Positions 8,974 to 33,166 of a DNA stretch of 41,241 nucleotides are shown piece after piece (within the stretch, counting starts at the first letter, position 1; each line of letters opens with the position of its first letter). The notes under the pieces are model-generated. The model made no database searches. It saw only the letters and a program-made list of their open reading frames with translations, and was not told the DNA's origin. Source of the DNA: a virus; IMG/VR virus record IMGVR_UViG_3300048838_000242, positions 1-41,241 of that record; one strand, written 5' to 3'. The position numbers and the translations under genes are program-made.

Positions 8974-8975
8974 TA

Positions 8976-8990
8976 TGATATTATGTAAAT
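8976..8990 (+). promoter_or_regulatory. Leaderless-type promoter for terS (TGA-TATTAT-N6-ATG)
   Basis: TATTAT at 8979-8984 preceded by TGA (extended -10) and followed by exactly six bases before the ATG at 8991. No Shine-Dalgarno sequence is present. Transcription starting about seven bases after the -10 would begin at the start codon. Confidence 0.65.
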
Positions 8991-9395
8991 ATGGCACAAG
9001 GAATTGCAAGAGATAAGGAAGAAACTATCGAAGCACTAAGACCCTACTTCCAGCTAGGCTATAGCGTAACCAAAGCTTGTGAATTAGCAAAAATCCCACA
9101 ATCAACCGTAGCTACATGGATTTCAAGCGATGAAGAACTTCGTTTAAAAATCACAGCATGGCAGGGAATGGTATCAGCACAGGCCAGAGCTAATGTCGTT
9201 AAGGCAATAAGAGGCGAGTCTGCACCAGACGGAACTGTAATTGTTGAACCAGATTTAAAACTTTCCCAATGGTGGTTAGAAACAAAAGACAGGGACGAAT
9301 TCAAAAAAGGCTTGGAAGTTGACGGTGTTTTAAGACTAGAAAAACTTATAGATGACATACTCAACGAAGATACAGAAGATTCAGAAACTAATTAA
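8991..9395 (+). CDS. terS: Terminase small subunit (TerS)
   Basis: A 134-aa protein with an N-terminal helix-turn-helix (LGYSVTKACELAKIPQSTVATWI) and a helical region with ARANVVKAI and DLKLSQWWLETKDRDEF. The WWLE-x-K-D-x-EF segment is typical of phage small terminases, which recognise viral DNA and hand it to TerL. It lies directly before TerL with a 44-nt overlap. It has its own leaderless-type promoter. Confidence 0.85.
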   Translation: MAQGIARDKEETIEALRPYFQLGYSVTKACELAKIPQSTVATWISSDEELRLKITAWQGMVSAQARANVVKAIRGESAPDGTVIVEPDLKLSQWWLETKDRDEFKKGLEVDGVLRLEKLIDDILNEDTEDSETN

Positions 9396-10662
9396 AGGTC
9401 TTTATTTAAACGGTAAAAAAGAACCTTATTTGGCTACCCCCAGCCAAGCTAAAGTATTCCTAGAAATTATAGACCCACACACACGCTGGTTATGGCTATC
9501 AGCACCTACTCGATTTGGTAAGTCTGAAATACTGGCTATGGCACTTATTTATCTTGCCAGTGTCAAACACCTTAAAATACCTATTGTTGCAGGCTCTAAA
9601 GACAAGGCTAACAAAATAATGGATTATGTTTTGCAACATCTATCGGACAATGATTTCTTTTACAAGGGGCTTATCAACCTTGATTTAACAGATGTGGAAA
9701 AATTAAAAGTCAGGGCTACAAAAGAAGCCTTACGCTGGTCAACAGGTGGGTGGGTATACATTACATCTATTGAAAGCTCCAACACGGTAAAACAAGGTGA
9801 GGGTGTTGTAGGTGAGGGTGGTGACGTGGTTGTACTTGAAGAAGCTGGACTTATTAAATCAAAAGAACAATTTTCAAAGATTGTTCGTATGCCAGAAGAA
9901 GACAAAGGTTGGGGAAAGCTCATCATGTCGGGAAACATGATAGAAAATAGCGTTTTTGAAACAGCCTATTCAGACCCACTCTATAAAAAAATCCGCATAA
10001 CACTAGATGACGCTGTAGCAGAGGGTAGGTTTACTTGGGAATACCTCGAAGAAAAGAAAAAACAAACTACCTCTAAGGACTGGAAACGCTATTACATACC
10101 AGAATTCCCACTTGCCGATGAATATGCCTACTTTAAACCACGCAGATATGACGTACTGCCTAGAGAGTTAAAATACTACGGTGCAATAGACCCAGCATTA
10201 GGTGAAAGCGAAAAGGGAAGTGCTACAGGCATTGTTGTTATAGGTGTAGCAACCGACACAGGTCAGAAATACGAGGTTGAAAGCATTAAAAGGATATTAA
10301 AACCCGATGAAGCAATAAGGCTCATATTCAACTTACCTTACACATTTCAAAGGTTTGGTTTTGAAGATGTCATGTTTCAAAGGTATTTCGGTAAGATTGC
10401 CAATGATTTAAGCAAAGAGCTTGGTATAAATATACCTTTTGAGGGAATTAAACAAACTAAGAACAAACTAGAGCGTATAGAGAGCCTTGAACCACCTATA
10501 AACACGGGTGGGATATTATTCAAGGGCGATAATGATTTGTGGAATGACCTTGCCGAATACCCCAAAGTAGAGTTACTCGATGTCCTAGACGCACTAGAAA
10601 TGGCAGATAGGATTAGTGAAAAAAAGAAACCCCGTATTTTAATTGGTGAGGAAGTCTGGTAG
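9352..10662 (+). CDS. terL: Terminase large subunit (TerL)
   Basis: A 436-aa packaging ATPase-nuclease. Walker A is APTRFGKS (51-58) and Walker B is DVVVLEE (158-164). A coupling motif MSGN lies at 192-195. The nuclease half has YGAIDP (Asp 280), FED near 337-339 and a C-terminal DVLDALEMADR. It pumps DNA into the prohead and cuts concatemers. The start is the least certain part: the ATG at 9352 gives a 44-nt overlap and no clear ribosome site, and no better ATG exists before the conserved region. Confidence 0.93.
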   Translation: MTYSTKIQKIQKLIKGLYLNGKKEPYLATPSQAKVFLEIIDPHTRWLWLSAPTRFGKSEILAMALIYLASVKHLKIPIVAGSKDKANKIMDYVLQHLSDNDFFYKGLINLDLTDVEKLKVRATKEALRWSTGGWVYITSIESSNTVKQGEGVVGEGGDVVVLEEAGLIKSKEQFSKIVRMPEEDKGWGKLIMSGNMIENSVFETAYSDPLYKKIRITLDDAVAEGRFTWEYLEEKKKQTTSKDWKRYYIPEFPLADEYAYFKPRRYDVLPRELKYYGAIDPALGESEKGSATGIVVIGVATDTGQKYEVESIKRILKPDEAIRLIFNLPYTFQRFGFEDVMFQRYFGKIANDLSKELGINIPFEGIKQTKNKLERIESLEPPINTGGILFKGDNDLWNDLAEYPKVELLDVLDALEMADRISEKKKPRILIGEEVW

Positions 10663-10671
10663 CATTCTAGT
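10657..10671 (+). promoter_or_regulatory. Leaderless-type promoter for the portal gene (TGG-TAGCAT-N6-ATG)
   Basis: TAGCAT at 10660-10665 with an upstream TGG, then TCTAGT and the ATG at 10672. The terL stop codon TAG forms the first half of the -10 box. No ribosome-binding sequence is visible. Confidence 0.65.
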
Positions 10672-12744
10672 ATGTCAAAAATATCTCAATTACGAAACGC
10701 ACTAGCTAAACGCATTTCAAAAAATGCAATGTCTGTGCCATTACCTAAAGAATTTTTAAAACACGGTAACAGGTACATGGCTTCGGACTGGTCAACTGTT
10801 GTCATGTCCGACAACGACCTTTATACAGGTTATGGTTATTCTGCAATTAGAAACCGAGCCAACATTGTTGCTAATACTGCAATAGAAAATGTCAGGACTG
10901 AAAGCAAGAAGCCGGATTATGTCCACCCATATTTAGACCTTATAAGAAATTCCCTTGATTTTTCAGAGTATGAGTTTTGGGCTAACATTTCCACTTACAT
11001 TGATTTAGAGGGTGTGTTTTATTTAATGGCTGTCAGAAGTGTGGGTGAGTCAAGTTTGGGCGATGTTCAATATTTTAAAATGCTTAATCCCTACAACATA
11101 CAGAGGGTTTTATCTAATGACACCTTAGAGGTTCAGGGCTATATAGAACGTAGAAAAGGTTTCAGCAGGGAAATACCCAAAGAAATGATTATTGAAATAC
11201 GCCAGTTAAACCCTTTTGATGAGGATAATCCTTATGCAATGACTGACGCAGCCAAAGAGGGGCAATTTACTTTAAAGACTGCTAGTGACTACACACGCCA
11301 CGCTTTGAAGAATAATATCAATGCTCCGGGTATTTTATCGACCGACATTATTTTAGATGAGGAAGAATTTAAGAATTTTAGAGCCAGAGTTTTAGCTCAT
11401 GTAAAGGGTGAGCCTATGTTTGCAAATGGTGCTGGTGCTATCAAATGGGATAGTATGCAGACCGAACTATCTAAGGCAGCCTTAAAAGATGTCAACGAGA
11501 TTAATCGAGAACTTTTATTTGCAGTAAGCGGTGTGTCAAAAACAATCATGGGTATAGAACAGTCAGGCACTACTAGAGAAACATCACGGGTTCAAAAGGA
11601 AATGATTATCGAATACCACTTGATACCTCAAATTAGGCTTATTACAGACGCCTTGAACCTTGATTACAGAAGAAACTACAGCGATGACTTTGAAAAGACC
11701 GAAGCCATGATTGTAGTTGATAGTCCTTTATCAGTTGACCTTGACGCTAAGTTAAAAGAGGTTGAACTGTCTAAAGAAAAACTGGATTTATATCAAACAT
11801 TAATTAACAAGGATATTTCCAATGATGTTGCAGAACAATATGTAATGGGTGAAATAGAGGTAGGTCAATTACCACTTGAAAAGTCTTTACCTATAATCCC
11901 AGAGGATACCAAAGAAAAAGATGAAGAACCACAAGACGTTGAAAACAAACTAGCACTCAACAAATTAAATGAGGACATTATCAAACAACAGCAAAACTCA
12001 TTAAAAAACGAAATTGTTAATATAGATGGAAGGCTTGTTTCAACTGCATTAAACAGACTAAGAAAAATCAAAAATGAAGTCGAAATAGACAAGGAGAGTG
12101 ATTTAATCAAAAAGACCGAGAAAAAAGAATTTGCCGATGAGTTAAATCTAACTTTAGGTTTATTCTATGCGATGGTGTTCAATATAATGGGCTCAGGCTT
12201 TATGAGTAAAAGAACACTTGAATACGGACTAACTGGTAGTTTTCAAATAGACAAAAAGACCACAGACGCAATTAAGTCACTTACAGGTAAGGTAAGCAAA
12301 AGTCACATTGACACTATATCCAGCGAAATTTACAAGGTAGCTAAGGAAGAAGCCAAAGCAGGTAAGTCATTATCTGAAATTGAAAGCATTTTAACTCAAA
12401 GATATTCTGGTCAAATTTCCGAAGCTAGGGCTACAGTAGTCGCAAGGACAGAAACCAACAGGGCTTTTACTATGTCGCAATTTGAAGCAGACAAACAATT
12501 CATAGAACAAAATGATTTAAGTTCTGTTGCATACAAACAATGGCGCACACGTTCCAGCAACCCATGTGAATTTTGCCAAGCACTAGAAAAACAAGGACCT
12601 GTACCATTCGGTAAAAACTTTAAGAATTTAGGTGACAGCATTGTGGTTGGTGATAAATCACTCAATGTTGATTTTGTACCTTTAGAGGCAGGTAATGCCC
12701 ACCCTAATTGCTCATGCACCTATGAGTTAGTACTTGAATTGTGA
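10672..12744 (+). CDS. Portal protein fused to MuF-like head morphogenesis domain
   Basis: A 690-aa protein. The N-terminal 400 or so residues form an HK97-type portal (GYSAIRNRANIVAN, then an ELLFAVSGVSKTIMGI region and ETSRVQKEMIIEYHLIPQ). A low-complexity acidic linker and a helical region follow. Residues from about 580 carry the MuF signature: ARATVVARTETNRAF, WRTRSSNPCEFCQALEKQ and AHPNCSCTYELV. The portal ring is the DNA gate of the head; MuF is a minor head component. Fused forms are known in some siphoviruses. Confidence 0.9.
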   Translation: MSKISQLRNALAKRISKNAMSVPLPKEFLKHGNRYMASDWSTVVMSDNDLYTGYGYSAIRNRANIVANTAIENVRTESKKPDYVHPYLDLIRNSLDFSEYEFWANISTYIDLEGVFYLMAVRSVGESSLGDVQYFKMLNPYNIQRVLSNDTLEVQGYIERRKGFSREIPKEMIIEIRQLNPFDEDNPYAMTDAAKEGQFTLKTASDYTRHALKNNINAPGILSTDIILDEEEFKNFRARVLAHVKGEPMFANGAGAIKWDSMQTELSKAALKDVNEINRELLFAVSGVSKTIMGIEQSGTTRETSRVQKEMIIEYHLIPQIRLITDALNLDYRRNYSDDFEKTEAMIVVDSPLSVDLDAKLKEVELSKEKLDLYQTLINKDISNDVAEQYVMGEIEVGQLPLEKSLPIIPEDTKEKDEEPQDVENKLALNKLNEDIIKQQQNSLKNEIVNIDGRLVSTALNRLRKIKNEVEIDKESDLIKKTEKKEFADELNLTLGLFYAMVFNIMGSGFMSKRTLEYGLTGSFQIDKKTTDAIKSLTGKVSKSHIDTISSEIYKVAKEEAKAGKSLSEIESILTQRYSGQISEARATVVARTETNRAFTMSQFEADKQFIEQNDLSSVAYKQWRTRSSNPCEFCQALEKQGPVPFGKNFKNLGDSIVVGDKSLNVDFVPLEAGNAHPNCSCTYELVLEL

Positions 12745-12756
12745 TAGCATATTAAT
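12742..12756 (+). promoter_or_regulatory. Leaderless-type promoter (TGA-TAGCAT-N6-ATG)
   Basis: TAGCAT at 12745-12750 preceded by TGA, which is also the portal stop codon, then ATTAAT and the ATG at 12757. It is nearly identical to the site before the portal gene and would drive the capsid transcript. Confidence 0.65.
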
Positions 12757-12867
12757 ATGTTTAAAAAATTGCTTGAGAAACTAAAATGCAAAAAAGACGA
12801 AGATGTGCATATTCACGACAACAAAGTGAAGAAGCATAAACCTCGTATTAAAAGAAATGAAAAATAA
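12757..12867 (+). CDS. Basic 36-aa peptide upstream of capsid gene
   Basis: MFKKLLEKLKCKKDEDV, then a His/Lys-rich tail and TAA at 12865. About 40% of residues are Lys, Arg or His. The ATG sits six bases after an extended -10, and the end overlaps the capsid start by 11 nt. The capsid gene has no obvious ribosome site of its own, so this peptide may mainly serve to deliver ribosomes to it. A small DNA-binding or decoration role is also possible. Confidence 0.6.
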   Translation: MFKKLLEKLKCKKDEDVHIHDNKVKKHKPRIKRNEK

Positions 12868-14818
12868 GTTCATAACACACATAAACAAAATTGAGGTCAT
12901 GCAAGACGGTGATAGTATTGTTAGGTTTTCCAACCCCGTACCAATTACCAGCGACCAAACAATGTATAACGGTGCTAGATACGATATAGCCAGTATGGAC
13001 ATATCAAAATACAAAGGGCTAGTTACTGTTAATCACTCCGACAATATTCAGGACATTGTTGGTAAGGTCATGGGTGTACAGAAAAACGACACCAATGTAA
13101 CTATCACAGGAATTGAATTTGCTACAGAACATTCTGCACTCGCTAGATTTACAAGGGATATGTTTTTGAACGGATTTATAACTGACTTTTCTATCGAAAC
13201 TGTTGGTCCTTGGGCTGACGATGACGGTGTGTATTATAACAGCGAATTAATCGGACTTTCCATTGTACTTGTAGGAAATAACAAGGAAGCAACGGTTAGT
13301 GAGATTTACGCAAAAGTATTAAATTCTGCAAAGGATAGTGGCCTTAATGTTGATGTATTAAATAAGATAATGCTTGACAATGAGGATACTGAAACCAATA
13401 ATAATCATATGAAATATGTAACTATTAAAAACAGCAAGGATTTCCCTGTTGTTGTCAAATACAAAAATGCAGAGGGCGATGAAGTCGAAAAGACACTAGC
13501 TCCTGCCGAAACTTTAGATGTTTCCGAGGAACAAAAGGAAGTAGTCGAAACTCAAGTAGAGGAAGCTACCGCACCAGAAACAACTGAAGAACCTAAAGAG
13601 GAAAAAAAGGAAGAAACCGAAGCTAAACTCCAATTAGACGCGGTTTTAAATAAAATAGAAAAATTGGAAAAAGAAGTTCTCAATAAAATGGCTAAAGAGC
13701 CTAACTTTATTAAAGACACTTCAAAACAAATTAATTCAATGGATTACAAACAAAGACATGCAGAACAAATAGTCGCTGCTTGGGATATGCTTAAAAACCA
13801 TGACTCTATTGCAGCCAGCAAACTCAAAGAAATAAACAAAGTCCATTTAGAATCTTTGCAAAAAGATGGCATAGTTTCTAACTCAGTTACTATCGCAGAT
13901 ATGGGCAACTTTGTTATTTCACCAGAGCTTTTGAGGGATATCGAAGGTCATAGGTCAAATTACCAAGACTTACTTTCTAGAGTTGACTGGAAAGAAACAC
14001 TTAGTTTACAAATGGCTTGGTTATCACGAAGTGGTGATATCAGCATGACAGAAGTTGAGCACTGCGATGATGGTGCAGATGGAAACCTTAAACCAATTTC
14101 AGAATATGGGGCAACTATCAATACTTCTAACCTACACGAATTAGCAGCCGTTACACCTGTTTGCGATGCAGCTACAAGATTTTTAGCTGTTGACCTTTTG
14201 GGCGATGTTGCTAATGGATACCGAACAGATTACGACAGAAAAAGAGCACAGTTGTTAATCGCTAGATTACAACAGGCTGTAAATACAACTGGTAATACAG
14301 TTACATACAGTACAGTAAGTTCTTTGACTGCTATTCAATCATTCATTGATGTTTGGTCAAGCATGGCTGAGGAAATTTCTAATGGTATTTTTGTATTCAA
14401 CTACAAAACATACGGGCAATTACTAAGACAATTAGTAGGAGCTGGAATTTCAACCGATAGCGCAATGGGGTTGTTTACAACTGGTAACCAACCAATGATT
14501 TTAGGTAGACCATACGTGGTAGTTCCTAATGACTTAATGCCTACATTAAATACTGCTGAAACTAAATCTTTCACAGTTGAAGGTTCGTCAGTAACAATCA
14601 ATAAGGGAGTATTCTACTTTGACCCAACTACTTTCACAGGTAGAACAAGTGGCGGATTGAAATACGACCTATCCACAGAAGCAGCTTACGAAGATGGTGA
14701 AACTGTTAAATCAGCTTTCCAAAGAAATGAACTTGTACTTAGAGGTTCGTTCTTCAGAGGCGGTGCTGTCAAGGATACAGACAAGGTTGTTGGTTTAGGA
14801 GCAAACGGAGTTTCCTAA
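12857..14818 (+). CDS. Prohead protease-scaffold-major capsid fusion (HK97 fold)
   Basis: A 653-aa protein with three parts. Residues 1-155 match the S78 prohead protease: VTVNHSD gives His60 and DFSIET gives Ser112, close to the HK97 spacing. Residues about 185-300 are Glu/Lys-rich with a predicted coiled coil, the usual scaffold or delta domain. From about 300 a HK97-type capsid subunit follows (SRVDWKETLSLQMAW, then a VFNYKTYGQLLRQ region and ELVLRGSFFRGG). The polyprotein is expected to assemble and then cut itself. An internal ATG at 13409 could give a separate scaffold-capsid product. A strong terminator follows. Confidence 0.9.
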   Translation: MKNKFITHINKIEVMQDGDSIVRFSNPVPITSDQTMYNGARYDIASMDISKYKGLVTVNHSDNIQDIVGKVMGVQKNDTNVTITGIEFATEHSALARFTRDMFLNGFITDFSIETVGPWADDDGVYYNSELIGLSIVLVGNNKEATVSEIYAKVLNSAKDSGLNVDVLNKIMLDNEDTETNNNHMKYVTIKNSKDFPVVVKYKNAEGDEVEKTLAPAETLDVSEEQKEVVETQVEEATAPETTEEPKEEKKEETEAKLQLDAVLNKIEKLEKEVLNKMAKEPNFIKDTSKQINSMDYKQRHAEQIVAAWDMLKNHDSIAASKLKEINKVHLESLQKDGIVSNSVTIADMGNFVISPELLRDIEGHRSNYQDLLSRVDWKETLSLQMAWLSRSGDISMTEVEHCDDGADGNLKPISEYGATINTSNLHELAAVTPVCDAATRFLAVDLLGDVANGYRTDYDRKRAQLLIARLQQAVNTTGNTVTYSTVSSLTAIQSFIDVWSSMAEEISNGIFVFNYKTYGQLLRQLVGAGISTDSAMGLFTTGNQPMILGRPYVVVPNDLMPTLNTAETKSFTVEGSSVTINKGVFYFDPTTFTGRTSGGLKYDLSTEAAYEDGETVKSAFQRNELVLRGSFFRGGAVKDTDKVVGLGANGVS

Positions 14819-14839
14819 TAACTAACTAGAATTTAGACT

Positions 14840-14867
14840 AGAGGGGGTGTAACAACCCCCTCTTTTT
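14840..14867 (+). terminator. Intrinsic terminator after the capsid gene
   Basis: A perfect 9-bp stem AGAGGGGGT/ACCCCCTCT with a 6-nt loop followed by a five-T run. It separates the capsid transcript from the promoter at 14869. Confidence 0.93.
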
Positions 14868-14868
14868 A

Positions 14869-14902
14869 TTGAAAAAAAACCTCAAACAGCTATACTTTTC
14901 TT
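14869..14902 (+). promoter_or_regulatory. Leaderless-type promoter (TTGAAA / 16 / TATACT-N6-ATG)
   Basis: TTGAAA at 14869-14874, a 16-nt spacer, TATACT at 14891-14896 and exactly six bases before the ATG at 14903. It lies directly behind the terminator, so the -35 and -10 assignment is good. No ribosome site is present. Confidence 0.75.
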
Positions 14903-15219
14903 ATGAACATTTCAATCAGACAAGGCGAAACGCTAGAACTCACCGTAACAATAGATGATTTGACTGCTAGTACAGTTCAATTAATAGTGGAAAATGACGA
15001 CGGCATTATCATAAATGAAACGGAAAACTTCTCTACAGTTAGCGGTAAGCGTGTTGCTTTAATAGAAACAAATAATACTGACCATGATTTAGGCGAATAC
15101 GAATATATGTTGGTTGTTACATACTCCGATGGTGTTATAGAAAAACTACCAGATGTTGCAGATTGCGAGGAATGTAGTTTACCAACACTTACTATTTGTA
15201 AATCTTTAGGAGTTAGTTA

Positions 15220-15220
<1 letters not shown>
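14903..15220 (+). CDS. Beta-sandwich virion protein candidate, 105 aa
   Basis: [19 protein letters not shown], then [19 protein letters not shown] and a [12 protein letters not shown] strand give an all-beta, Ig-like or BppU-N-like pattern. A CEEC near the C terminus could bind metal. The position between capsid and fibre suggests a head decoration or fibre-attachment protein. The name is not certain. It is probably expressed from a leaderless mRNA. Confidence 0.65.
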
Positions 15221-17201
<1,981 letters not shown>

Positions 17202-17205
<4 letters not shown>

Positions 17206-18145: not shown

Positions 18146-19346
18146 AAAACTCGTAGCATCAGATGATTTTAATAGGTCTAACGGTGCAATAGGTGCAAAT
18201 TGGACTGAATCCACAAACAATGACGGCTTGAACATTGTAAGTAATGCAGTAAAGTCTGCAAATGCAGGTTCTTATGACAATGCAATGTTTTGGAATGTTG
18301 ACGCTTTTAATGCAGCTCAATGGTCAAAAGCAACTTTAGTTGATATTGGTTCTGGTACTCCTTATGCAGCTGTTATTGTCAGGGCAAATGCCACAGACTT
18401 TGTAGGCGGTCAGAGTAGAGAGGGCGACCCACCTGAAATATCTATCTTTTGGTATAACGGTGGTTCATTCACGAACTTAGCAAATACAAGCTCCCATGCT
18501 TGGGCAAATAATGATGAAATGGTCATGGAGGCTACTGGCACTAGATTTAGCTTGTTTGTTAATAACATTCTTAGAATTTCAGGCACTAATGGTTCTGCAC
18601 CATCATCAGGTAGTGCAGGAATTTCAATGTACTCCACAAGCTCAATTATGGACAACTGGAGTGGTGGTAACTTAACCCACTTTGTCAATAGTAGCGGTTC
18701 GGGAACTGCAATATCGGTAGCAACAAGTGGTATTGCTGTTGGCGATTTAGTTATCTGTGTAGTTCATGTAAACAACGACACCACTATTGTTGATAATAAT
18801 GGGGCTACTCCTTTTACAGAGAATGTTAATGATTACCACCCAAACCCAGCAGGTGCTCATACCGTTTCCATTTTCTCTAGGGTTTTCCAAACTGGAGACC
18901 CCACCACATTTAGTTTTACCTCTGGTGTTGACGGTAGGTGGAATATATCTTGTATGCACTTTACAGGGTATGAGTTTGATGTAACACCAAGCACTACTTA
19001 CTTTAATAATACGAATACTTACGATAATAACTATATAGATGCACCAACTATAACCACAGGTTTGGATAACGCTTTACATATAATCGGTGCGGTGTTAGAT
19101 GCCTCTGCAACTCAGATAATCACGCTACCCGCAGGTTATGAAAATGCTGGAAGCAACGGAGCTACCCATGCTATTGCTTTGGGTATAAAGACTATTGCTA
19201 CGGCAGGTGCCACAGGTGCTCAAACCATCACATTTGTTGATGGGGCAACAATTATGGGCTTTTCCTTTTCTGTAAAACCTGTTTCTAGTGTTGTTTATGT
19301 ACCTCGTATGGGTTTTGTTAATCATCAAAACCCCGGTATGGTATAA
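18138..19346 (+). CDS. Lectin-like virion surface protein, 402 aa
   Basis: Residues about 1-178 look like a concanavalin/LamG-type sandwich (ASDDFNRSNGAIGANWTE at the N terminus, a central SLFVNNILRISG strand, and a WSGGNL end). Residues about 180-395 form a second beta domain (VGDLVICVVHVNND, ITTGLDNALHIIGAVLD, AQTITFVDG) that resembles the protein at 30221. Both halves suit sugar recognition on the virion. The last codons overlap the promoter of the next gene. Confidence 0.75.
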   Translation: MPRKLVASDDFNRSNGAIGANWTESTNNDGLNIVSNAVKSANAGSYDNAMFWNVDAFNAAQWSKATLVDIGSGTPYAAVIVRANATDFVGGQSREGDPPEISIFWYNGGSFTNLANTSSHAWANNDEMVMEATGTRFSLFVNNILRISGTNGSAPSSGSAGISMYSTSSIMDNWSGGNLTHFVNSSGSGTAISVATSGIAVGDLVICVVHVNNDTTIVDNNGATPFTENVNDYHPNPAGAHTVSIFSRVFQTGDPTTFSFTSGVDGRWNISCMHFTGYEFDVTPSTTYFNNTNTYDNNYIDAPTITTGLDNALHIIGAVLDASATQIITLPAGYENAGSNGATHAIALGIKTIATAGATGAQTITFVDGATIMGFSFSVKPVSSVVYVPRMGFVNHQNPGMV

Positions 19347-19353
19347 TTACAAT
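19339..19353 (+). promoter_or_regulatory. Leaderless-type promoter (TGG-TATAAT-N6-ATG)
   Basis: A perfect TATAAT at 19342-19347 with a TGG extension and exactly six bases (TACAAT) before the ATG at 19354. The upstream gene's stop codon lies inside the -10 box. This decides the start of the next gene at 19354 over the in-frame ATG at 19288. Confidence 0.75.
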
Positions 19354-19959
19354 ATGGTAAATGAGTGGCTAGATGTTCACCAAGACTTTGAGAAAAAATG
19401 GCATGGTGACTGTATAAACTCTTATTGGGAAGAAACAAAACAACTCGTTTACGCTAAAAAGATTGGGTTAACCCCACTTTTTGAAAATGGCAAGTACCCC
19501 GTTTATGATTTAAAAGGCATTTCCGTTTGTGATATTGGCGGTGGCCCTTATTCAATACTCCTAAAAGCAATTAATAGAGGTTACTGTTTGGTTGTTGACC
19601 CCTGCGAATATCCAGAATGGATTAGGCTCAGATATGACACGGCATTTATAGCGTCTACAATGACACAGGCTGAAACTTTCACCACAGACAGGGTGTTTGA
19701 TGAGGTATGGATATATAACTGTCTACAGCACACCACAGACCCCCAAAGGATAATACAAAATGCTAGGTCATACTCCAAAGTTATCAGAATATTCGAGTGG
19801 GTAGATAACGGTATTTCAATAGGCCACCCCCAAGATTTAAAGGCTGATTTGTTAAATGAGTGGCTTGGCGGTATTGGTAAAGTCGAGCAATTAAATGAAA
19901 ATGGTTGTAAAGGTAAGGCGTATTACGGAATATTTAAAGGACAACATTATGAAACGTAG
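19354..19959 (+). CDS. Class I SAM-dependent methyltransferase
   Basis: A 201-aa protein. ISVCDIGGGPYSILLKAINRG is split here by motif I (VCDIGGGP). LVVDPCEYP gives the acidic end of strand 2, and VWIYNCLQHTTDPQRII matches motif IV/V of small-molecule methyltransferases. No DNA-methyltransferase signature such as DPPY or PCQ is present, so a sugar or metabolite substrate is likelier. It overlaps the following glycosyltransferase by 11 nt, which suggests methylation of its product. Confidence 0.8.
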   Translation: MVNEWLDVHQDFEKKWHGDCINSYWEETKQLVYAKKIGLTPLFENGKYPVYDLKGISVCDIGGGPYSILLKAINRGYCLVVDPCEYPEWIRLRYDTAFIASTMTQAETFTTDRVFDEVWIYNCLQHTTDPQRIIQNARSYSKVIRIFEWVDNGISIGHPQDLKADLLNEWLGGIGKVEQLNENGCKGKAYYGIFKGQHYET

Positions 19960-21172
19960 TTTCACTTTCCATTTATTGGGTTTGGCTCACTTGCCAACAT
20001 CAAAGTATTATCTTAGTTGTGCTTTCACACAGAAAAACGTCAAACTTACTAAAATGTTATGTGATTTAGGTCATACAGTATATTTGTATGGTGTTAAATC
20101 CACAGAAAAGGGCTTTGATTTAGAGGAATATATTAATTCGGATAAATTTCATTTCATAGAAACCCACACAATACACGATATTGCTAATGACTATGGTGAT
20201 GGTGATAATAGATTTGAGATAGGCTACAACTGGAAAATACAAGACTTCAAGCACGATTTAAGCTCTGAAAGACGTTCTTCAACATTAAAATTTTATGCCA
20301 ACGTTATAAAAAAGATAAACAGGTTAAAAAAACCAGACCATTTTGTGTTGGCTACACAAGGTCAATATCATAGTCCGATAACACAGGCAGTTAATCTTTA
20401 TCTTACTTGTGAGAGTGGTATCGGTTACAGGGGTTCTATTAAAGGCATGTTTAGAAGTTTTGAAAGTCCCTATATTCAAAATTTTACTTACGGTTCAGAA
20501 AATCCCTTTGCTTCTGTTGATGGCTCGTATTATGACAGGGTTATTCCTAACTATTTTGATGACAACGACATAAAATTCTCTGATAAAAAGGGTGATTATT
20601 TTTTATTCATTGGAAGACTAATCAAGCGCAAGGGTATTTTGACTGCATATATGGCAACAAAAGCCATAGGTGCAAAGTTAATAATCGTAGGGCAGGGCGG
20701 TTTGATTGATGGCAGGGGTTATTTAGTGGATAACCACCCGAAGGAGTTTGAAATACCAAACGATAGTGATTGGGAATACAGGGGTTACGCTGATGTAGAA
20801 ACTCGAAAAGACTTAATGGCAAATGCCATAGCAACATTTGTACCAACAGAATATTTAGAGTGTTTTGGTGGTGTTCATGTTGAAAGTATGTTAAGCGGTA
20901 CTCCACCAATTACCACAGACTTTGGAGTTTTCCCTTATACCATACCAGATTATTTAAATGGTAAGGTTGGCTTTAGATGTAACACCTTGCAAGATTTTGT
21001 AGACGCCTCGGTGAAAGCTAGAGAGGTAGACCACAAGTTTATTAGACAATATGCTGAAAGATTTTTAATGCAAAATGTTGCACAGGATTACCAAAAGTGG
21101 TTTGAAGACCTTTATCAAGTTTATCTATCTACAGACGGTAAGACAAAGGGTTGGAGTTTTGTCAGAAAATAG
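19949..21172 (+). CDS. GT4-family glycosyltransferase
   Basis: I placed the start at the ATG at 19949 because AAAGGACAAC lies just upstream; the longer in-frame form from 19895 has no such site. The 407-aa GT-B enzyme has YFLFIGRLIKRKGILTAY, AKLIIVGQGG and a C-terminal site PTEYLECFGGVHVESMLSG (E-x7-E type). It sits among fibre and connector genes, far from the first sugar block. Glycosylation of a virion protein such as the collagen-like fibre is therefore an attractive guess. Confidence 0.85.
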   Translation: MKRSFTFHLLGLAHLPTSKYYLSCAFTQKNVKLTKMLCDLGHTVYLYGVKSTEKGFDLEEYINSDKFHFIETHTIHDIANDYGDGDNRFEIGYNWKIQDFKHDLSSERRSSTLKFYANVIKKINRLKKPDHFVLATQGQYHSPITQAVNLYLTCESGIGYRGSIKGMFRSFESPYIQNFTYGSENPFASVDGSYYDRVIPNYFDDNDIKFSDKKGDYFLFIGRLIKRKGILTAYMATKAIGAKLIIVGQGGLIDGRGYLVDNHPKEFEIPNDSDWEYRGYADVETRKDLMANAIATFVPTEYLECFGGVHVESMLSGTPPITTDFGVFPYTIPDYLNGKVGFRCNTLQDFVDASVKAREVDHKFIRQYAERFLMQNVAQDYQKWFEDLYQVYLSTDGKTKGWSFVRK

Positions 21173-21174
21173 AT

Positions 21175-21186
21175 TAAGATTTTATT
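21175..21186 (+). promoter_or_regulatory. Leaderless-type promoter (TAAGAT-N6-ATG)
   Basis: TAAGAT at 21175-21180 and exactly six bases (TTTATT) before the ATG at 21187. It lacks the TGn extension and a good -35, so the call rests mainly on the shared spacing. Confidence 0.45.
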
Positions 21187-22588: not shown

Positions 22589-22968
22589 ACATAGCCGAAA
22601 GTTTTGCAAATTATTTAGTCGATAATTTTTCACTCACTTTAGGCACAGACCTTTTTATAGGCGGTGTACCTCTTAGCGCACCAGATAGTGCTTGGTGGTT
22701 AGTCTTATCAGGCGGTAATAATGAAAACAAATTAAGTACTGGCGAAAAGATTAAGAACTATCGCATTAATACATATTACCGAAGTTCAAACACCAGCGAT
22801 GTCTATAATTCACTTCACGCTTTGGAATTGGCAATAAGTGGTTGCATAGAATTAGAGGATTTTGAAGTCATTGAAGTTGAAACTTTAGTTTATCCCACAG
22901 ACCAAGACCTCGATATTGAAGACCGAACAGTAGGCATGATTGAAGTCAATGTTCGTGTTTATGCTTGA
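22585..22968 (+). CDS. Tail terminator candidate
   Basis: A 127-aa alpha/beta protein (NIAESFANYLVDNF, then FIGGVPLSAPDSAWWLVLSG and a VIEVETLVYPTDQ strand). The pattern helix, APDxAWWLxxSGG, IEVNVRVYA is that of phage tail terminators or minor capsid proteins that cap the tail tube. It precedes the major tail protein, as expected for this role. Confidence 0.75.
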   Translation: MNIAESFANYLVDNFSLTLGTDLFIGGVPLSAPDSAWWLVLSGGNNENKLSTGEKIKNYRINTYYRSSNTSDVYNSLHALELAISGCIELEDFEVIEVETLVYPTDQDLDIEDRTVGMIEVNVRVYA

Positions 22969-22999
22969 CTAATATATTTTACCACTCTATCATTTCAAT
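22965..22999 (+). promoter_or_regulatory. Leaderless-type promoter for the major tail protein (TTGACT / 17 / TATCAT-N6-ATG)
   Basis: TTGACT at 22965-22970, an exact 17-nt spacer, TATCAT at 22988-22993 and six bases before the ATG at 23000. The complete -35/-10 pair makes this the clearest member of the leaderless class. Confidence 0.8.
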
Positions 23000-23506
23000 A
23001 TGGCAATAATTAAAGGTCCTTTCAACCTGCGCTGGGGTGACAGCGAACTTCAAGACATTGAAGAAATAGAATTTGAGCACGAAATCAATACAGAAGATAT
23101 TGAGAGTGTTCAAGGTAAAGTTATAGAATTAGACGGTTCGTATAAGGCAACTGTTACCATTACTCTTTTGGAAACTGATATTGCAGCCTTAGCTGTTGTT
23201 CTTCCTCAACACCATGTAGTAAATGGCGGTGTATTATCAACTGGGGAAACTGTAAACAACGCACAGGGTGCTATTGATGTTGCACCTAGAGCTTGTGATG
23301 ACGCAGAAATAACTAAAAATCTTGATATTATTTCTTGTGAAAATCCTGCACAGGTCATGCGACTTGTTAGTGCAAGGTCAAAACTCGAAGGTATCGAAGT
23401 TGACAATATGTTGAGAAAAGTCATGGTTAAATTCATAGGTCAATCAGAAAGCACTGAAGCTACAGTTCAATTCTTTAAAGAGGGAACTATTAGCGTAGTA
23501 TCATAA
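23000..23506 (+). CDS. Major tail tube protein
   Basis: A 168-aa protein (KGPFNLRWGDSELQDIEEIE, then VTITLLETDIAALAVVLPQ, then VMVKFIGQSESTEATVQFF) with the beta-sandwich pattern of siphovirus tube subunits. It lies between the tail terminator and the chaperones. It has its own strong promoter, as expected for one of the most abundant virion proteins. Confidence 0.8.
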   Translation: MAIIKGPFNLRWGDSELQDIEEIEFEHEINTEDIESVQGKVIELDGSYKATVTITLLETDIAALAVVLPQHHVVNGGVLSTGETVNNAQGAIDVAPRACDDAEITKNLDIISCENPAQVMRLVSARSKLEGIEVDNMLRKVMVKFIGQSESTEATVQFFKEGTISVVS

Positions 23507-26703: not shown

Positions 26704-29432
26704 AAACTGAAACTTTAAGAAATGTTTTAAATAAAAATTTTAATGACTTTACCGAAGCCACAGTTGACGGTGGTGTTGAAATAAACAACAAACGGCTTGA
26801 AGTTTTTCTTAATTCTAGCGTTTCTGGCGGTGTTGAGTTATTGGATAATCAACAAAATTCCACGGGTACTAATTTTGGTTTTGGTGAGTTTACAGGCAAG
26901 AGGTATAGAGGTCAGGTTTTTACTTGCTCACTTACTGGTGATTTAACCAAAATAGGTTTTTCGAGAAATAAAGGTTCAACAGGGTTAAAAATATATATTG
27001 ATACGGTTGATGGAAGTAATTTACCTGCACACTCTGTAGGTTCTGAACTTTATTCTTTCACTATTCCTTACGCTAATGTTATTGATGAGTACGGAGAGTA
27101 CGAATTACCAGTACCACTAGCAGTAACTTCAGGCACGAAATATTGTTTTTATGTTGCCCCTTGGGATACTGTATCAGATACTTATTCAGATGATTACGAG
27201 GATTTTCGAGGTATCAATTCAATAAGTGGCGGTGTAACCACGATAGAAAATACAAATGGTACTTGGGGAACAGAAGCACTTACTTTGCAATACAAAACTT
27301 ACGTTACACAAAGTAGTGTTAGTGAAAACTACGCCAAGATAGTTTCTGATGATGTTTACGACCTTACAAACAGTTACGCAAGAGTACAATTAGTACAACC
27401 CCCCATATCTACTTCCGAGGTGGTGGCTTTTATTAGGTTGTACGAGTCTACAGCAGATGGAGAGTTCGTTTTTTACTACAAAGGTGGTTTATTATATGCC
27501 CGATATGTAAACACGTCTGGGAGCGTTACAGAGCTTGGAAGTGTTACCTATGACAGGGTGGCTCACAAATATATTCAAATAAGGCATAGTGGAAGTAACG
27601 TAAACTTTGACGTATCACCCGACCTTGTTAATTTCTCTACTTTGTTTACTACAACCCATAATTTGGATTTAACGGATTTAAAAATAGAGCTGGGAGTAGA
27701 ATTAACCGACGAGGAAACCGCATTTAATGTAGTGGCATTTTCTAACCTCAATACTGTTGCACCTGTAATTCTACCTAATAGAAAATTCAATATTAAAACA
27801 GGCTTTGAGGGTGAGTTGATAGATAAATTTAATGGCGTGGCTGAGTACCCCGACAGCACAATAAGGGAAACTAAATTTCATATATACGATGCTTTGGAAG
27901 CCATAAGTGAATTTAAATTGAGTGCTGGTGGGCTTGATGAAGATGTTCGTACTGATATTTATATTCAGGGCATTTTAGATGAGGTTTATGCTGATTATTA
28001 TTTGCCTGTGGTAACTGCCGAGGTTGCAGAAAGCTGGACAGATGATGGTACTGGTGCAGATGACGCTACTTTTTCAGACGATACCTCTAATTTTAAATAC
28101 GGAAGTGCTTCAAGAAAAATCAATGTTGATAATGGTACTGCTTTGTCAGAATTAGCTGTGTCTTTGGATTTATCAGACTATGACGCTATAACATTTGATA
28201 TTTGGGTTGAAGATGTTACGTCTTTAGATGAAGTAATTTTAAGACTTTACGATGGAGCAGATTTTTATTCATACACACCAACACTATCAGACGACTGGAA
28301 CTCATTTAAGGTTTTGATATCAGACATGACTGTTTCAGGCACACCAAATTTAGCCACAATAGATAAGGTTGAGATTGAAGTTACTAGCGTGGCTAGTGAA
28401 ATTGCGGAAATTAATTTTGATGAAATTCGAGCAGTAATAAACAAGGACTACCCTCAAAGAATATTTGATAGCGGTTTGAGTGTAATTCCTGTGGTTTGGT
28501 GGGGCGGTAATACAGCCTTATATGAAATAAAAACCGCAAGCGAAGCCGAGGGTGCTAGATTTTTTGCTGATGAACAAGGCAGATTAATATTCCAAAATAG
28601 ACAGCATTTTAACGTAAATGATGAGTTCAAAAGTTCGAGGTATGGTTTTGACTTTGATAATTCAAAAGATTTGATTTATACGGGTAAGATTTCAGAAATT
28701 ATCAATAAGGTTACTGTAGTGCTAAAACCTAGACGAGTACAATCTGTGCAGGTTGTTTGGTCATACTTTGACGTTCCTAAATCAATATCAGGCGGTGAAA
28801 CATTGGTTGTTTGGGCTAACTTTGAAAACCCCGTGTTTGATATTGTTACCCCCGTTTCAACCACTGATTATGTAGGAAATGCTAATTCTGACGGCTCTGG
28901 TGCAAACAGAACCTCTGATATCACTGTAACAATAACCAAATTTGGCACGTCTGCTAAATTGGAAATAGAAAACACTTCAGGCACACCACTTTATTTGACG
29001 CTAATGCAAATAAGGGGCGAACCAGCAACCGAACAATCCGCAGTTTTAATTGAAGCCGAAAACACCACAAGCATATCGAGATATGGCGTTCAACCATCGG
29101 GCGGTTTAATTATTGAAAACAAGTACGCAGTAGATGAAGAATATGCTCAATCTCTTGCTGATTTATTTATTGACCAGTACAGTACACCTAATTCAAAGGT
29201 AGTCATAAGAGGCAGGGCTGTACCACATTTGCAATTAGGCGACATGGTTTCGGTTAATAATTCATACCTAAATGAAACCTACATAATGCGAATAATCCAA
29301 ATAAAAGAACAATTTGCTAGTGGCTTATACAATGCAGAATATAGGTTGCGTCATGTAACTAATTTTGAAACATTATCGTTTTTTACTATTGGCACTTCTT
29401 CTATTGAAGGGGAAGATGTAATATCATTTTAA
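26700..29432 (+). CDS. Tail tip/baseplate hub protein with inserted glycan-binding-like domains
   Basis: A 910-aa protein with GTG start. Residues 1-360 hold two beta-rich modules (RYRGQVFTCSLTGDLTKIGF; YARVQLVQPPISTSEVVAF) that look like carbohydrate-binding or lectin domains. Hub-type sequence then resumes at PNRKFNIKTGFEGELIDKF. A third sandwich (ESWTDDGTGADDATFSDD to INFDEIRAVIN) interrupts it again before EAEGARFFADEQGRLIFQNR and the C-terminal hub part (VVIRGRAVPHLQLGDMVSV). Expected to form the adsorption tip. Confidence 0.75.
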   Translation: MKTETLRNVLNKNFNDFTEATVDGGVEINNKRLEVFLNSSVSGGVELLDNQQNSTGTNFGFGEFTGKRYRGQVFTCSLTGDLTKIGFSRNKGSTGLKIYIDTVDGSNLPAHSVGSELYSFTIPYANVIDEYGEYELPVPLAVTSGTKYCFYVAPWDTVSDTYSDDYEDFRGINSISGGVTTIENTNGTWGTEALTLQYKTYVTQSSVSENYAKIVSDDVYDLTNSYARVQLVQPPISTSEVVAFIRLYESTADGEFVFYYKGGLLYARYVNTSGSVTELGSVTYDRVAHKYIQIRHSGSNVNFDVSPDLVNFSTLFTTTHNLDLTDLKIELGVELTDEETAFNVVAFSNLNTVAPVILPNRKFNIKTGFEGELIDKFNGVAEYPDSTIRETKFHIYDALEAISEFKLSAGGLDEDVRTDIYIQGILDEVYADYYLPVVTAEVAESWTDDGTGADDATFSDDTSNFKYGSASRKINVDNGTALSELAVSLDLSDYDAITFDIWVEDVTSLDEVILRLYDGADFYSYTPTLSDDWNSFKVLISDMTVSGTPNLATIDKVEIEVTSVASEIAEINFDEIRAVINKDYPQRIFDSGLSVIPVVWWGGNTALYEIKTASEAEGARFFADEQGRLIFQNRQHFNVNDEFKSSRYGFDFDNSKDLIYTGKISEIINKVTVVLKPRRVQSVQVVWSYFDVPKSISGGETLVVWANFENPVFDIVTPVSTTDYVGNANSDGSGANRTSDITVTITKFGTSAKLEIENTSGTPLYLTLMQIRGEPATEQSAVLIEAENTTSISRYGVQPSGGLIIENKYAVDEEYAQSLADLFIDQYSTPNSKVVIRGRAVPHLQLGDMVSVNNSYLNETYIMRIIQIKEQFASGLYNAEYRLRHVTNFETLSFFTIGTSSIEGEDVISF

Positions 29433-29433
29433 T
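29422..29433 (+). promoter_or_regulatory. Leaderless-type promoter (TATCAT-N6-ATG)
   Basis: TATCAT at 29422-29427, then TTTAAT and the ATG at 29434, the same -10 hexamer and spacing as before the major tail gene. It lies in the last codons of the hub gene; the -35 is poor. Confidence 0.5.
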
Positions 29434-29796
29434 ATGTACTATAAATTTGTCTGGAATAAAACTAAAAGAAAGTGGGAAGACAAAGTCCCTTTGGTAAATG
29501 AGGCTGTTGGTTTGCATTACCTTGTAAAAAATGGTGATGAAGTTGTGATTGAGGTGTATATAGACGATGGGGATTTATTTAAAACCTTTTTTTGCGAATA
29601 CAAGGAAAGCTGTTTGACTGTGAGAAAAAGACCCCAAGGTCTTTTGGGAGTGCAGGATTGGAGTATTGATACTAGATTAAGCGAACACGCTAAAGACGCA
29701 CCTCTTAGGGCTATGTATCCCAACTCGCCAGTTACCAGCGATGAAGAGGCTCATTGGAACACAGAAAGTAGTTTATTCAGTTTGGAGGTTTTATGA
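29434..29796 (+). CDS. Tail-associated hypothetical protein, 120 aa
   Basis: A beta-rich protein (MYYKFVWNKTKRKWEDKVPL, then VVIEVYIDDGDLFKTFFCEY, then a Trp-rich C terminus). I recognise no domain. It starts with a leaderless-type signal and overlaps the next tail gene by 4 nt, so a minor tail or fibre-tip component is likely. Confidence 0.6.
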   Translation: MYYKFVWNKTKRKWEDKVPLVNEAVGLHYLVKNGDEVVIEVYIDDGDLFKTFFCEYKESCLTVRKRPQGLLGVQDWSIDTRLSEHAKDAPLRAMYPNSPVTSDEEAHWNTESSLFSLEVL

Positions 29797-30886: not shown

Positions 30887-30889
30887 TTA

Positions 30890-30904
30890 TGTTACGATTT
30901 AGAT
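30890..30904 (+). promoter_or_regulatory. Leaderless-type promoter (TGT-TACGAT-N6-ATG)
   Basis: TACGAT at 30893-30898 with a TGT extension and six bases before the ATG at 30905. It marks the start of the lysis block. Confidence 0.55.
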
Positions 30905-31072
30905 ATGGACATGGGCGAATTTTTTAATGCTATATCAAACTTCGGCTTTCCTATAGTGTTAGCTGGGTATTTACTTCTTCGGTTTGAGAAAAAACTAGAC
31001 GAACTTACAAGAACTATAGATAAATTAGACACTTCAGTTAATAATTTAATTAATAACAGAAATAGAAGGTGA
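30905..31072 (+). CDS. YvrJ-family membrane protein, 55 aa
   Basis: MDMGEFFNAISNFGFPIVLA, then GYLLLRFEKKLDELTRTIDK: an N-terminal span with the NxGFPI motif followed by a charged helix. This is the YvrJ family found in Bacillus and in phages, often near lysis genes. Function is not established; a holin or anti-holin partner is possible. Confidence 0.85.
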   Translation: MDMGEFFNAISNFGFPIVLAGYLLLRFEKKLDELTRTIDKLDTSVNNLINNRNRR

Positions 31073-31077
31073 TTATA

Positions 31078-31425
31078 TTGTTCGATACATTGCTATATGT
31101 GATAAATGCCCCGTACTTTTGGGGTTCAATGGGATTTACGGTAGCTATGGCAATGTTGATAGGTGCGTATATTTTTGACGGCAATATTGATGACGCTAAA
31201 AAAGGTGTAGCGGTTATGTCTAGCTATGGCGTTATGATTATTTGGCTGATGTTGTGTAGAATTTATGACACCACAAACGGATTTAAAACACTTCATTTCT
31301 CGTCAAGACCAGAATTAGCATTTGCGGGTATTGTCACGGTTTTGTGCGTAACAGTAGCGTGGTTGTTTGGTTTGGTCTTGGGGGTTTTCATATTAAGGCA
31401 CAGAAAATCCTTGACAAGACTGTAA
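31078..31425 (+). CDS. Three-span membrane protein, holin candidate
   Basis: Three hydrophobic spans (WGSMGFTVAMAMLIGAYIF; VAVMSSYGVMIIWLMLC; LAFAGIVTVLCVTVAWLFGL) and a basic tail (RHRKSLTRL). The layout and the position next to YvrJ and the amidase fit a holin. I choose TTG at 31078 as start because AGAAGGTGAT lies 5-10 bases upstream; GTG at 31069 would sit on that ribosome site. The reading frame has no ATG before the first span. Confidence 0.6.
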   Translation: MFDTLLYVINAPYFWGSMGFTVAMAMLIGAYIFDGNIDDAKKGVAVMSSYGVMIIWLMLCRIYDTTNGFKTLHFSSRPELAFAGIVTVLCVTVAWLFGLVLGVFILRHRKSLTRL

Positions 31426-31444
31426 ATATGGTAGAATAGATTTA
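31411..31444 (+). promoter_or_regulatory. Hybrid promoter: TTGACA-N5-GTAAATAT plus TGG-TAGAAT-N7-ATG
   Basis: TTGACA at 31411-31416 with GTAAATAT five bases later, as in the three class E promoters. It is combined with an extended -10 (TGG TAGAAT, 31429-31437) seven bases before the ATG at 31445, as in the leaderless class. The -35/-10 distance is only 15, or 17 if GAATAG is the -10. Confidence 0.55.
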
Positions 31445-31627
31445 ATGTATCTAGTCTTGTTTAAACCCCAAAAAGGTGAAAAAACTGCGGCTTACTCCTT
31501 CGTTGAAGATTTAACTCTAATTCCTAAAGAAATTATTTTAAAAAAACGCAAAGTTAATTTTGATATAGTCCCATCAAAAGAAGAATGCGCTGTGTTAGTT
31601 GAAAAGGTGTTAAATGATAAAAGATAG
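31445..31627 (+). CDS. Small hypothetical protein, 60 aa
   Basis: MYLVLFKPQKGEKTAAYSFV, then a Lys-rich strand (KEIILKKRKVNFDIV) and a helical end. Not recognised. Coding support comes from its promoter, the absence of other frames and the 14-nt overlap with the amidase gene. Confidence 0.55.
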   Translation: MYLVLFKPQKGEKTAAYSFVEDLTLIPKEIILKKRKVNFDIVPSKEECAVLVEKVLNDKR

Positions 31628-32669
31628 AACTCATGAATATCTAGCTGACGGCAGGTCTTGGTATCAACGAAACGCTGATACAATAAAAAAGATTACTGTT
31701 CACCATACAGCAGGAACTACAGACGGTTCGGAGGATTTTATCCTTAATTCGATATTTTCCACACACCACGGCACAAATGGGTGGCCTGGGATTTCATACC
31801 ACTATTTTTATATACCAAAAAGATTTAAAGGTTACTCTGGAAAAATAATTAAGTTAAATAATGATGAAGACGTTACATGGCATGACGGAGTAAACTTTGA
31901 TAGCATTGGCTTTTGTATTCATGGATTTTACCACCCTGACGTTAATCAAACACTTGAACCAGAGGATTTTGAAAACATAAAGGCATTTTTAGACTGGTTG
32001 TGTAGTGAAAACCCTCAATTCCCAGCCGATTTTGATGATGTTGTAGGTCATAGGGATAGAGGTCAAACAGCCTGTCCCGGAAATTATTTATACCCATATG
32101 TTACTGAATACAGAACAAAGCGGGGTAATGTAGATTGGGGAGTTGATGAAGACTGCCTGTGCTTAGATGATGACATTACTGCTGGTATCGAGGATGAGTT
32201 TAAACTAAAAGATAAACCTTGGTACTCAAAGTATTGGAACCTTACCGATTTTATAAACGACAGCATTAAAACCCACTCGATAGTAAGTACACTTGAAGAT
32301 ACTGTTAGCAGACAAAAAACCGAATTAAGGGATTTGAAAACACTTTTGGATAGGGCTTTGACAGATAAGGAAAACATAAATAACACGTTAATTCAAACAC
32401 AAAAAATTCATGGTGATTTGAAAATTGCATACGACCGAGATTTTAAGGAGCTGACACTTAAAAAAGAGGAGTTGACTAAATTACAAACTGATTACAACAA
32501 ACTTAATGGGCTGTATCAGACAGCTCTGGATAAAGTTGATACTTATAAGGGTAAGCTAGACTTGGCAAATTTAGAAATTGCACGATTAACCAATCAGAAA
32601 TTCACAGTACCAGAAAGTTTAAATTTCTTAATTCAAGCAATTAGAGGGGGTGGAAAAAATGTACAGTAG
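31614..32669 (+). CDS. Endolysin: N-acetylmuramoyl-L-alanine amidase with coiled-coil tail
   Basis: A 351-aa protein. Residues about 25-175 are an Amidase_2/PGRP domain. KITVHHTAGTT (His30) and VGHRDRGQTACPG supply zinc ligands, and WHDGVNFDSIGFCIHGFY is the core strand. It cuts the bond between MurNAc and L-Ala of peptidoglycan. Residues about 235-335 form a long heptad-rich coiled coil instead of a typical wall-binding domain. No signal peptide is visible, so export by a holin is expected. Confidence 0.92.
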   Translation: MIKDRTHEYLADGRSWYQRNADTIKKITVHHTAGTTDGSEDFILNSIFSTHHGTNGWPGISYHYFYIPKRFKGYSGKIIKLNNDEDVTWHDGVNFDSIGFCIHGFYHPDVNQTLEPEDFENIKAFLDWLCSENPQFPADFDDVVGHRDRGQTACPGNYLYPYVTEYRTKRGNVDWGVDEDCLCLDDDITAGIEDEFKLKDKPWYSKYWNLTDFINDSIKTHSIVSTLEDTVSRQKTELRDLKTLLDRALTDKENINNTLIQTQKIHGDLKIAYDRDFKELTLKKEELTKLQTDYNKLNGLYQTALDKVDTYKGKLDLANLEIARLTNQKFTVPESLNFLIQAIRGGGKNVQ

Positions 32670-32925
32670 TTTAGTAGGTTTAATTTTGCCACCATTTATT
32701 GACTTCATAAACAAAAACATAGCTAACTCCAAAGTTAGGTTTGTCGTTTCTTTGGTTGTATGTTCATTTGTAGCTCTAGCATTAGAATTTATGAACGGCA
32801 CATTGAAGTATGCAAATGGTCAAGAAATATTACAATCCATAGCTTTGATTTTTACGTCATCGCAGGTTATTTATAAACTTTATTGGGAAAAATCCACCAT
32901 GCGAGAGGTGGTATTCAAAAAATGA
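32659..32925 (+). CDS. Two-span membrane protein, second holin candidate
   Basis: An 88-aa protein with a hydrophobic N-terminal segment (LVGLILPPFIDFI), a main span (VRFVVSLVVCSFVALALEF), a weak third hydrophobic stretch and a basic tail. The ATG at 32659 follows AGAGGGGGTGG at good distance, so I prefer it to the GTG at 32650. It directly follows the amidase, the usual holin position. Confidence 0.65.
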   Translation: MYSSLVGLILPPFIDFINKNIANSKVRFVVSLVVCSFVALALEFMNGTLKYANGQEILQSIALIFTSSQVIYKLYWEKSTMREVVFKK

Positions 32926-33101
32926 CTTTGAGGTTACTGCTCTTATCCTGTATTTAGCTTAATATTTGGGCGACATATAGGACAGATTGGTTCCTCAAAG
33001 TTCTAGGATTAATTCTAGGACTGTTTTATCTCCAAAAGGTATTACCCATCATTTCATTATATAAATTGCCCTACGGTCATTGTAGGCTCTCAAAATGGTG
33101 C
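32926..33101. other. Intergenic stretch with small repeats
   Basis: No gene. Contains a direct repeat TTCTAGGA (about 33000-33025) and a short hairpin CCTAC/GTAGG near 33070-33087. No clear terminator follows the lysis genes here; the nearest one is at 33173. Confidence 0.4.
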
Positions 33102-33136
33102 TTTACAACTTAATAATCACTAAATATCATTAAGTA
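33102..33136 (+). promoter_or_regulatory. Promoter with overlapping operator-like palindrome
   Basis: TTTACA at 33102-33107, an exact 17-nt spacer and TATCAT at 33125-33130. A perfect dyad TCATTA-AG-TAATGA (33127-33140) overlaps the -10 and the expected start point, a good place for a repressor. ATG follows the -10 by six bases, as in the leaderless class. Confidence 0.7.
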
Positions 33137-33166
33137 ATGAACTTAGGTTTAACACCTACAATCTAA
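33137..33166 (+). CDS. Possible leaderless nine-residue leader peptide
   Basis: ATG at 33137, exactly six bases after TATCAT, opens MNLGLTPTI and stops at TAA 33164-33166, just before the terminator hairpin at 33173. The arrangement is that of an attenuator leader. There is no run of one amino acid, so the regulatory cue is not evident. It may be chance. Confidence 0.3.
   Translation: MNLGLTPTI

Follow-up and report, generated by a model that had tools for sequence, protein, structure and literature searches.

A virus record of 41.2 kb (IMGVR_UViG_3300048838_000242; 37.4% GC), referred to here over its whole length of 41,241 nucleotides as the window, carries a series of genes whose ATG follows a hexamer of the form TAnnAT at a nearly constant distance. 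An earlier sequence-only reading took these hexamers for the -10 boxes of a family of late promoters, placed such that transcription would begin on the start codon itself. The locus raises the question of whether the boxes are a real feature, whether they are promoters, and which polymerase and which kind of translation initiation they would then serve.

Gene content of the virus record

Almost every gene of the window lies on the + strand. The late block codes for the small and large terminase subunits, a portal/head protein, a collagen-like tail fibre, a tail tube protein, a tape measure protein, a holin and an amidase, and the other genes include glycosyltransferases, two of them TET-associated, as well as RadC-like and ArdC-like genes; the terms early and late were assigned from this gene content. 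The two TET-associated glycosyltransferase (TAGT) genes adjoin each other at 7182-8731 and further glycosyltransferases are found at 1253-6112 and 19895-21172, a set that could possibly act in DNA or virion glycosylation. The gene with an ArdC N-terminal domain (anti-restriction, 39314-39592) adjoins the RadC-like gene (38898-39314).

Rfam and tRNA scans across the window gave no matches. DNA and protein searches of named phages did not yield a close isolate phage: a distant DNA search with positions 8950-16900 matched the collagen-like tail-fibre repeats only, and searches with the TerL, portal and tape measure proteins returned remote relatives only, with no pointer to the host.

Leaderless-type starts in the window

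Eleven starts had been listed, ten of them with TAnnAT ending six nucleotides before the ATG. Direct reading confirmed nine of these, whereas the box at 14903 is TATACT and fits only the looser TAnnnT; at the eleventh, 31445, TAGAAT ends seven nucleotides before the ATG, as claimed. The starts and the elements next to them are as follows.

8976-8991, + strand: TGA-TATTAT-N6-ATG, an extended -10; leaderless-type start of the terminase small subunit gene (8991-9395)
10657-10672, + strand: TGG-TAGCAT-N6-ATG; leaderless-type start of the portal/head-morphogenesis gene (10672-12744)
12742-12757, + strand: TGA-TAGCAT-N6-ATG; leaderless-type start of a 36-aa ORF overlapping the next start (12857)
14840-14863, + strand: terminator-like hairpin of 9 pairs followed by TTTTT, directly 5' of the 14903 promoter
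14869-14903, + strand: TTGAAA-16-TATACT-N6-ATG; putative promoter and leaderless-type start of 14903-15220, directly 5' of the tail-fibre gene
19339-19354, + strand: TGG-TATAAT-N6-ATG; leaderless-type start of the phrog_3603 gene (19354-19959)
21175-21187, + strand: TAAGAT-N6-ATG; leaderless-type start of 21187-21876
22965-23000, + strand: TTGACT-17-TATCAT-N6-ATG; putative promoter and leaderless-type start of the major-tail-protein-like gene (23000-23506)
29422-29434, + strand: TATCAT-N6-ATG; leaderless-type start of 29434-29796
30890-30905, + strand: TGT-TACGAT-N6-ATG; leaderless-type start of the holin-like gene (30905-31072)
31411-31445, + strand: TTGACA-15-TAGAAT-N7-ATG with TGG before the -10; putative promoter and start of 31445-31627, with the amidase gene (31614-32669) next
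33125-33198, + strand: TATCAT-N6-ATG, then a frame of 9 codons and a terminator-like hairpin; questionable as a gene

Ten of the eleven look like leaderless starts at intergenic ATGs, and the one at 33137 is weak. In agreement with the earlier description, a TGn precedes the box at six of the eleven (8991, 10672, 12757, 19354, 30905 and 31445), a Shine-Dalgarno (SD) sequence at normal distance is absent before all of them, and the stop codon of the upstream gene overlaps the promoter at three, where TAG forms part of the -10 (10672), TGA makes the TGn (12757) or TAA lies within the -10 (19354); at 29434 the upstream stop codon sits in the spacer. Homology backs several of these starts, as the proteins from 21187 and 23000 align with those of a related contig (L002) from residue 1 and that from 10672 from residue 3. 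The match of the 19354 ORF covers almost all of phrog_3603.

The candidate at 33137 is best not counted as a gene: its spacing fits, but the frame has 9 codons and is followed by a terminator-like hairpin within 60 nucleotides, the whole element being about 75 nucleotides long. The element at 33125-33198 is possibly a small RNA, an attenuator or a product of chance.

Spacing of the box over all gene starts

To keep the choice of start blind to the motif, ORF length was the sole criterion in gene calling. Of the 66 window genes obtained in this way, 6 carry TAnnAT at spacing 6, where about 0.7 would be expected (P = 8e-5). The calling did not recover 12757 (the 36-aa ORF) or 19354 (its ORF being extended to a GTG at 19288). 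Searches with the portal and TerL proteins found as relatives seven virus contigs and L010, a phage contig in a MAG. The window was pooled with seven contigs (L002, L003 and G003-G007, the last five being the records behind L004, L005, L007, L008 and L009; L006, nearly identical to L005, was left out), which gave 364 genes.

TAnnAT stands at spacing 6 before 36 of these 364 genes, whereas a first-order Markov model predicts 3.7 (P = 3e-23); the model gives 1.0% per gene, in line with the chance rate of about 1% that had been estimated from base composition. The counts are 13 at spacing 5, 8 at spacing 7 and about 4 at the others. The exact hexamer TATAAT occurs before 28 genes at spacings 5, 6 and 7 (8, 14 and 6, respectively) and 0-2 times at any other spacing, and a TGn precedes 52% of the pooled sites at spacings 5-7, compared with 6% of the TAnnAT further upstream that served as a control. 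ATGs that are not gene starts showed a flat profile without a spacing peak (33/4642 at spacing 6). Sites at spacing 6 were found at 21 of the 72 genes preceded by a gap of 5-40 nucleotides, against 4 of the 141 overlapping starts. The same script found a single spacing-6 match among the 220 genes of four phages of other hosts, distributed as follows.

Staphylococcus phage phi 11: 0 genes
Faecalibacterium phage Mushu: 0 genes
Weissella phage phiYS61: 1 gene
Arthrobacter phage Reedo: 0 genes

These numbers bear on the simplest alternative, namely that the boxes arise by chance in AT-rich, compact gene junctions, where stop codons beginning with TA lie near the next ATG. The window, at 37% GC, and its three sites in which the motif takes in a stop codon are of the kind that this account would predict. 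Yet the Markov expectation, the flat profiles seen for other spacings and before ATGs that are not starts, the conservation of the box in relatives and its lack at spacing 6 in phi 11, a phage of 34% GC, make it scarcely credible and refute it as a general account, although it may still apply to individual sites, 33137 or 29434 for instance.

Conservation in related phages

Conservation of the spacing in relatives had been set as a test of the earlier reading, and the reading passes it. The portal proteins of four of them (G003, G004, G006 and G007) share 22-24% identity with that of the window, and their genes carry the box at spacings of 5-7.

G003, portal gene: TGA.TATAAT at spacing 5
G004, portal gene: TGG.TATAAT at spacing 7
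G006, portal gene: TTG.TATAAT at spacing 6
G007, portal gene: TGA.TATAAT at spacing 7

In G005 the position corresponding to the portal start carries TGC.TATAAT at spacing 6, and this record is the clearest case overall, with about ten TGnTATAAT-N5/6-ATG starts. Similarly, the L002 ortholog of the 21187 gene has TGG.TATAAT at spacing 7, and a small ORF of L002 in the place equivalent to the 12757 ORF has TGT.TATAAT at spacing 7, the two peptides being without obvious likeness. In L010 no box was found at the portal gene and TAnnAT stood at spacing 6 in none of 31 genes. The spaced box is a real, conserved and non-chance feature of these phages. Its spacing in the relatives ranges from 5 to 9, and some leaders may therefore be 1-3 nucleotides long.

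Promoter-like character of the boxes

A TTGACA or TTGACT lies 15-18 bp before the box at 23000 and 31445 of the window, at 4326 and 5781 of G003 and at 25863 of G007. A site with one of the two elements, -35 or TGn, tends to lack the other (2/35 against 11/52, P = 0.066), a trend expected of sigma70 promoters, and the TGn would stand in for the -35. The mean match to the -35 was not above control (2.7/6 at the sites and 2.6/6 in the control), and the boxes at 21187 and 29434 are far from TATAAT and lack a TGn. Judged by their sequence, the sites with their -35 or TGn elements, the upstream terminator and the intergenic gaps resemble sigma70 promoters of separate transcription units.

Transcription begins about 7 nucleotides past a -10 box. 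With a spacing of 6, +1 would therefore coincide with the A of the start codon; spacings of 5-7 correspond to a leader of 0-1 nucleotide and spacings of 8-9 to one of 1-3 nucleotides. The motif could instead be a translation signal, such as an AU-rich standby site or an S1-type site within a longer leader; most genes of these phages are without a recognisable SD, so that another aid to initiation would be needed. Such a signal would require neither an exact TATAAT, a TGn at fixed offset and a TTGACA at 15-18 bp nor an upstream hairpin terminator and a preference for genes that follow intergenic gaps, and we consider it very improbable.

Probable host phylum

The one TerL relative found in a genome (60% identity) is encoded on L010, which is binned in the MAG 'bacterium ADurb.Bin212' (G001). 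The phylum of this MAG is the candidate host phylum; when 380, 384 and 393 genomes belonging to it or to its classes were searched with a TerL profile, one strong match was obtained, in the genome that bears L010, and otherwise weak ones. The genomes drawn from the candidate phylum are of 0.4-2.2 Mb, mostly 0.5-1.5 Mb, and the ribosomal protein uL30 (PF00327) was found in 0 of 9 of them, compared with 13 of 14 control genomes. The reduced genomes and the missing uL30 fit the Patescibacteria, the phylum to which the MAG, unclassified at NCBI, would then belong.

At least one TGnTATAAT-N6-ATG site is present in 352 of 380 candidate-phylum genomes, and 24 of the 380 contain 20-102 sites. The same pattern at spacing 11 never exceeded a count of 9 in these genomes; this control replaced a reversed-pattern control, which was too weak since TATAAT itself is enriched. 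The sites are densest in three genomes of 0.7 Mb each (G116, G164 and G294), with 86-102 exact matches. Gene starts show a peak at spacing 6 in G170 (18/110, P = 6e-12, with an SD found in none), in G252 (13/101, all with TGn) and in G260 (12/125), and a weak one in G001 (11/267 against 3.5 expected, P = 1e-3). This weak peak, seen in a larger sample of G001, led us to discard the idea that L010 simply reflects a host lacking leaderless genes.

The spacing mode of 6 and the TGn of the phages thus match a start type common in the candidate phylum. Taken together, the one binned contig and this match in start type point to the candidate phylum as the probable host group. As to mechanism, the parallel drawn earlier with Actinobacteria and Deinococcus is a fitting one, but the host evidence favours a reduced-genome, Patescibacteria-like phylum.

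Early and late genes

Leaderless-type starts in the window occur at 10 of about 31 late genes and at no more than 1 of 36 others (855, a weak site; Fisher P = 0.002). A different kind of promoter was found three times outside this set.

8716-8782, + strand: early-type promoter with ACCTATTGACAATTAGGT (operator-like inverted repeat), -10 TATATT and the SD AAAGGA in the leader; ATG at 8782
36269-36334, + strand: early SD-led promoter, copy 2 of 3; ATG at 36334
38832-38898, + strand: early SD-led promoter, copy 3 of 3; ATG at 38898, of the RadC-like gene

The three share ACCTATTGACAAnTAnGTAAATAT (8716-8739, 36269-36292 and 38832-38855), for which shuffled sequences give an expectation of 0, and all have a -10 box, with AAAGGA in the leader ahead of the ATG. 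In the first copy the inverted repeat ACCTA...TAGGT covers the -35. The shared element suggests that a single repressor governs the three promoters, and the window phage appears to use two start types, SD-led for early and leaderless for late genes.

The notion of a late-gene programme is supported for the window, whose late half contains the sites, but not for the family: the early-region genes 4326 and 5781 of G003 carry TTGACA-17-TAnnnT-N6-ATG, and leaderlessness is therefore not tied to lateness. The early promoters of G003 (the record behind L004/L012), at 4078-4350 and 5746-5781, share an element resembling CTACTAGCAG that lies between their -35 and -10 and is perhaps the operator of that phage.

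The late clustering in the window would also be expected if the boxes were read by a phage-specific late sigma factor or a modified polymerase, and not by host sigma70. Against this, the consensus of the relatives is an ordinary TGnTATAAT, joined at some sites by TTGACA-17, the early regions of relatives use the signal too, it is also borne by chromosomal genes in the phylum of the likely host, and Pfam scans of window proteins revealed no sigma factor; we regard this explanation as quite improbable.

Proposed mechanism

The account that we consider probable is that the boxes are -10 elements, often extended (TGnTATAAT), which the housekeeping sigma70-type RNA polymerase of the host would read to give leaderless or near-leaderless mRNAs; the phage would in this way use a start type common in its probable host group. 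Since the box ends 5-7 nucleotides before the ATG, transcription would start on its A or within about 1 base of it, and the ribosome would bind the 5' AUG to begin translation. The first gene of each transcription unit would be leaderless, with the genes after it served by read-through, translational coupling or an SD. The sigma factor, the exact transcript 5' ends, the leaderless translation and the identity of the host are here as we infer them.

A more specific proposal is that, in a reduced-genome, Patescibacteria-like host, the phage splits its programme by translation mode, with operator-overlapped, TTGACA-type, SD-led early promoters and extended -10 leaderless late ones. We think this unlikely; if true, a change in the state of the ribosome or of initiation factors could switch the programme.

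If the sigma70 account is right, gene starts in these phages, and in a portion of the phylum that probably hosts them, could be called from the -10 box and not from the SD, and the phages would supply a small, naturally occurring collection of extended -10 leaderless promoters open to direct testing. The match in start type suggests that phage start signals track the initiation habits of the host, and such signals may aid host prediction. Leaderless starts occur in a number of bacterial phyla, but the literature searched contained no description of them in Patescibacteria or in the structural genes of a phage family, although an earlier description is possible.

Comparison with known leaderless systems

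By kind, the starts in the window appear to belong with known bacterial leaderless genes. The mRNA of lambda cI begins at its AUG and is leaderless; cI is a single regulatory gene, whereas many structural genes across a phage family are concerned here.

Leaderless genes have been broadly predicted in bacteria, and the 2011 survey of TA-led (leaderless) genes described a TANNNT about 12 bp before the start, read as the sigma70 -10, and, in genomes of low GC content such as that of Lactococcus, a peak of TG (PMC3160421). The position of the box and the TG peak are like those found here; the part of the survey considered mentions phage only for lambda, whereas the present case concerns a phage family and a phylum of reduced genomes. 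Similarly, a TANNNT precedes mRNAs with a 5' AUG at genome scale in Mycobacterium tuberculosis (PMC3898074). That organism is of a different phylum and its 5' ends were reportedly mapped, whereas here the starts are predicted from sequence. In Deinococcus-Thermus, experiments have established that an ORF-adjacent -10 box with a spacing requirement drives leaderless transcription (PMC12340547). The adjacent box and the constrained spacing are shared with the phages described here, but the motif of Deinococcus-Thermus is a loose TANNNT, whereas that of the phages, of 34-40% GC, is often the extended TGnTATAAT.
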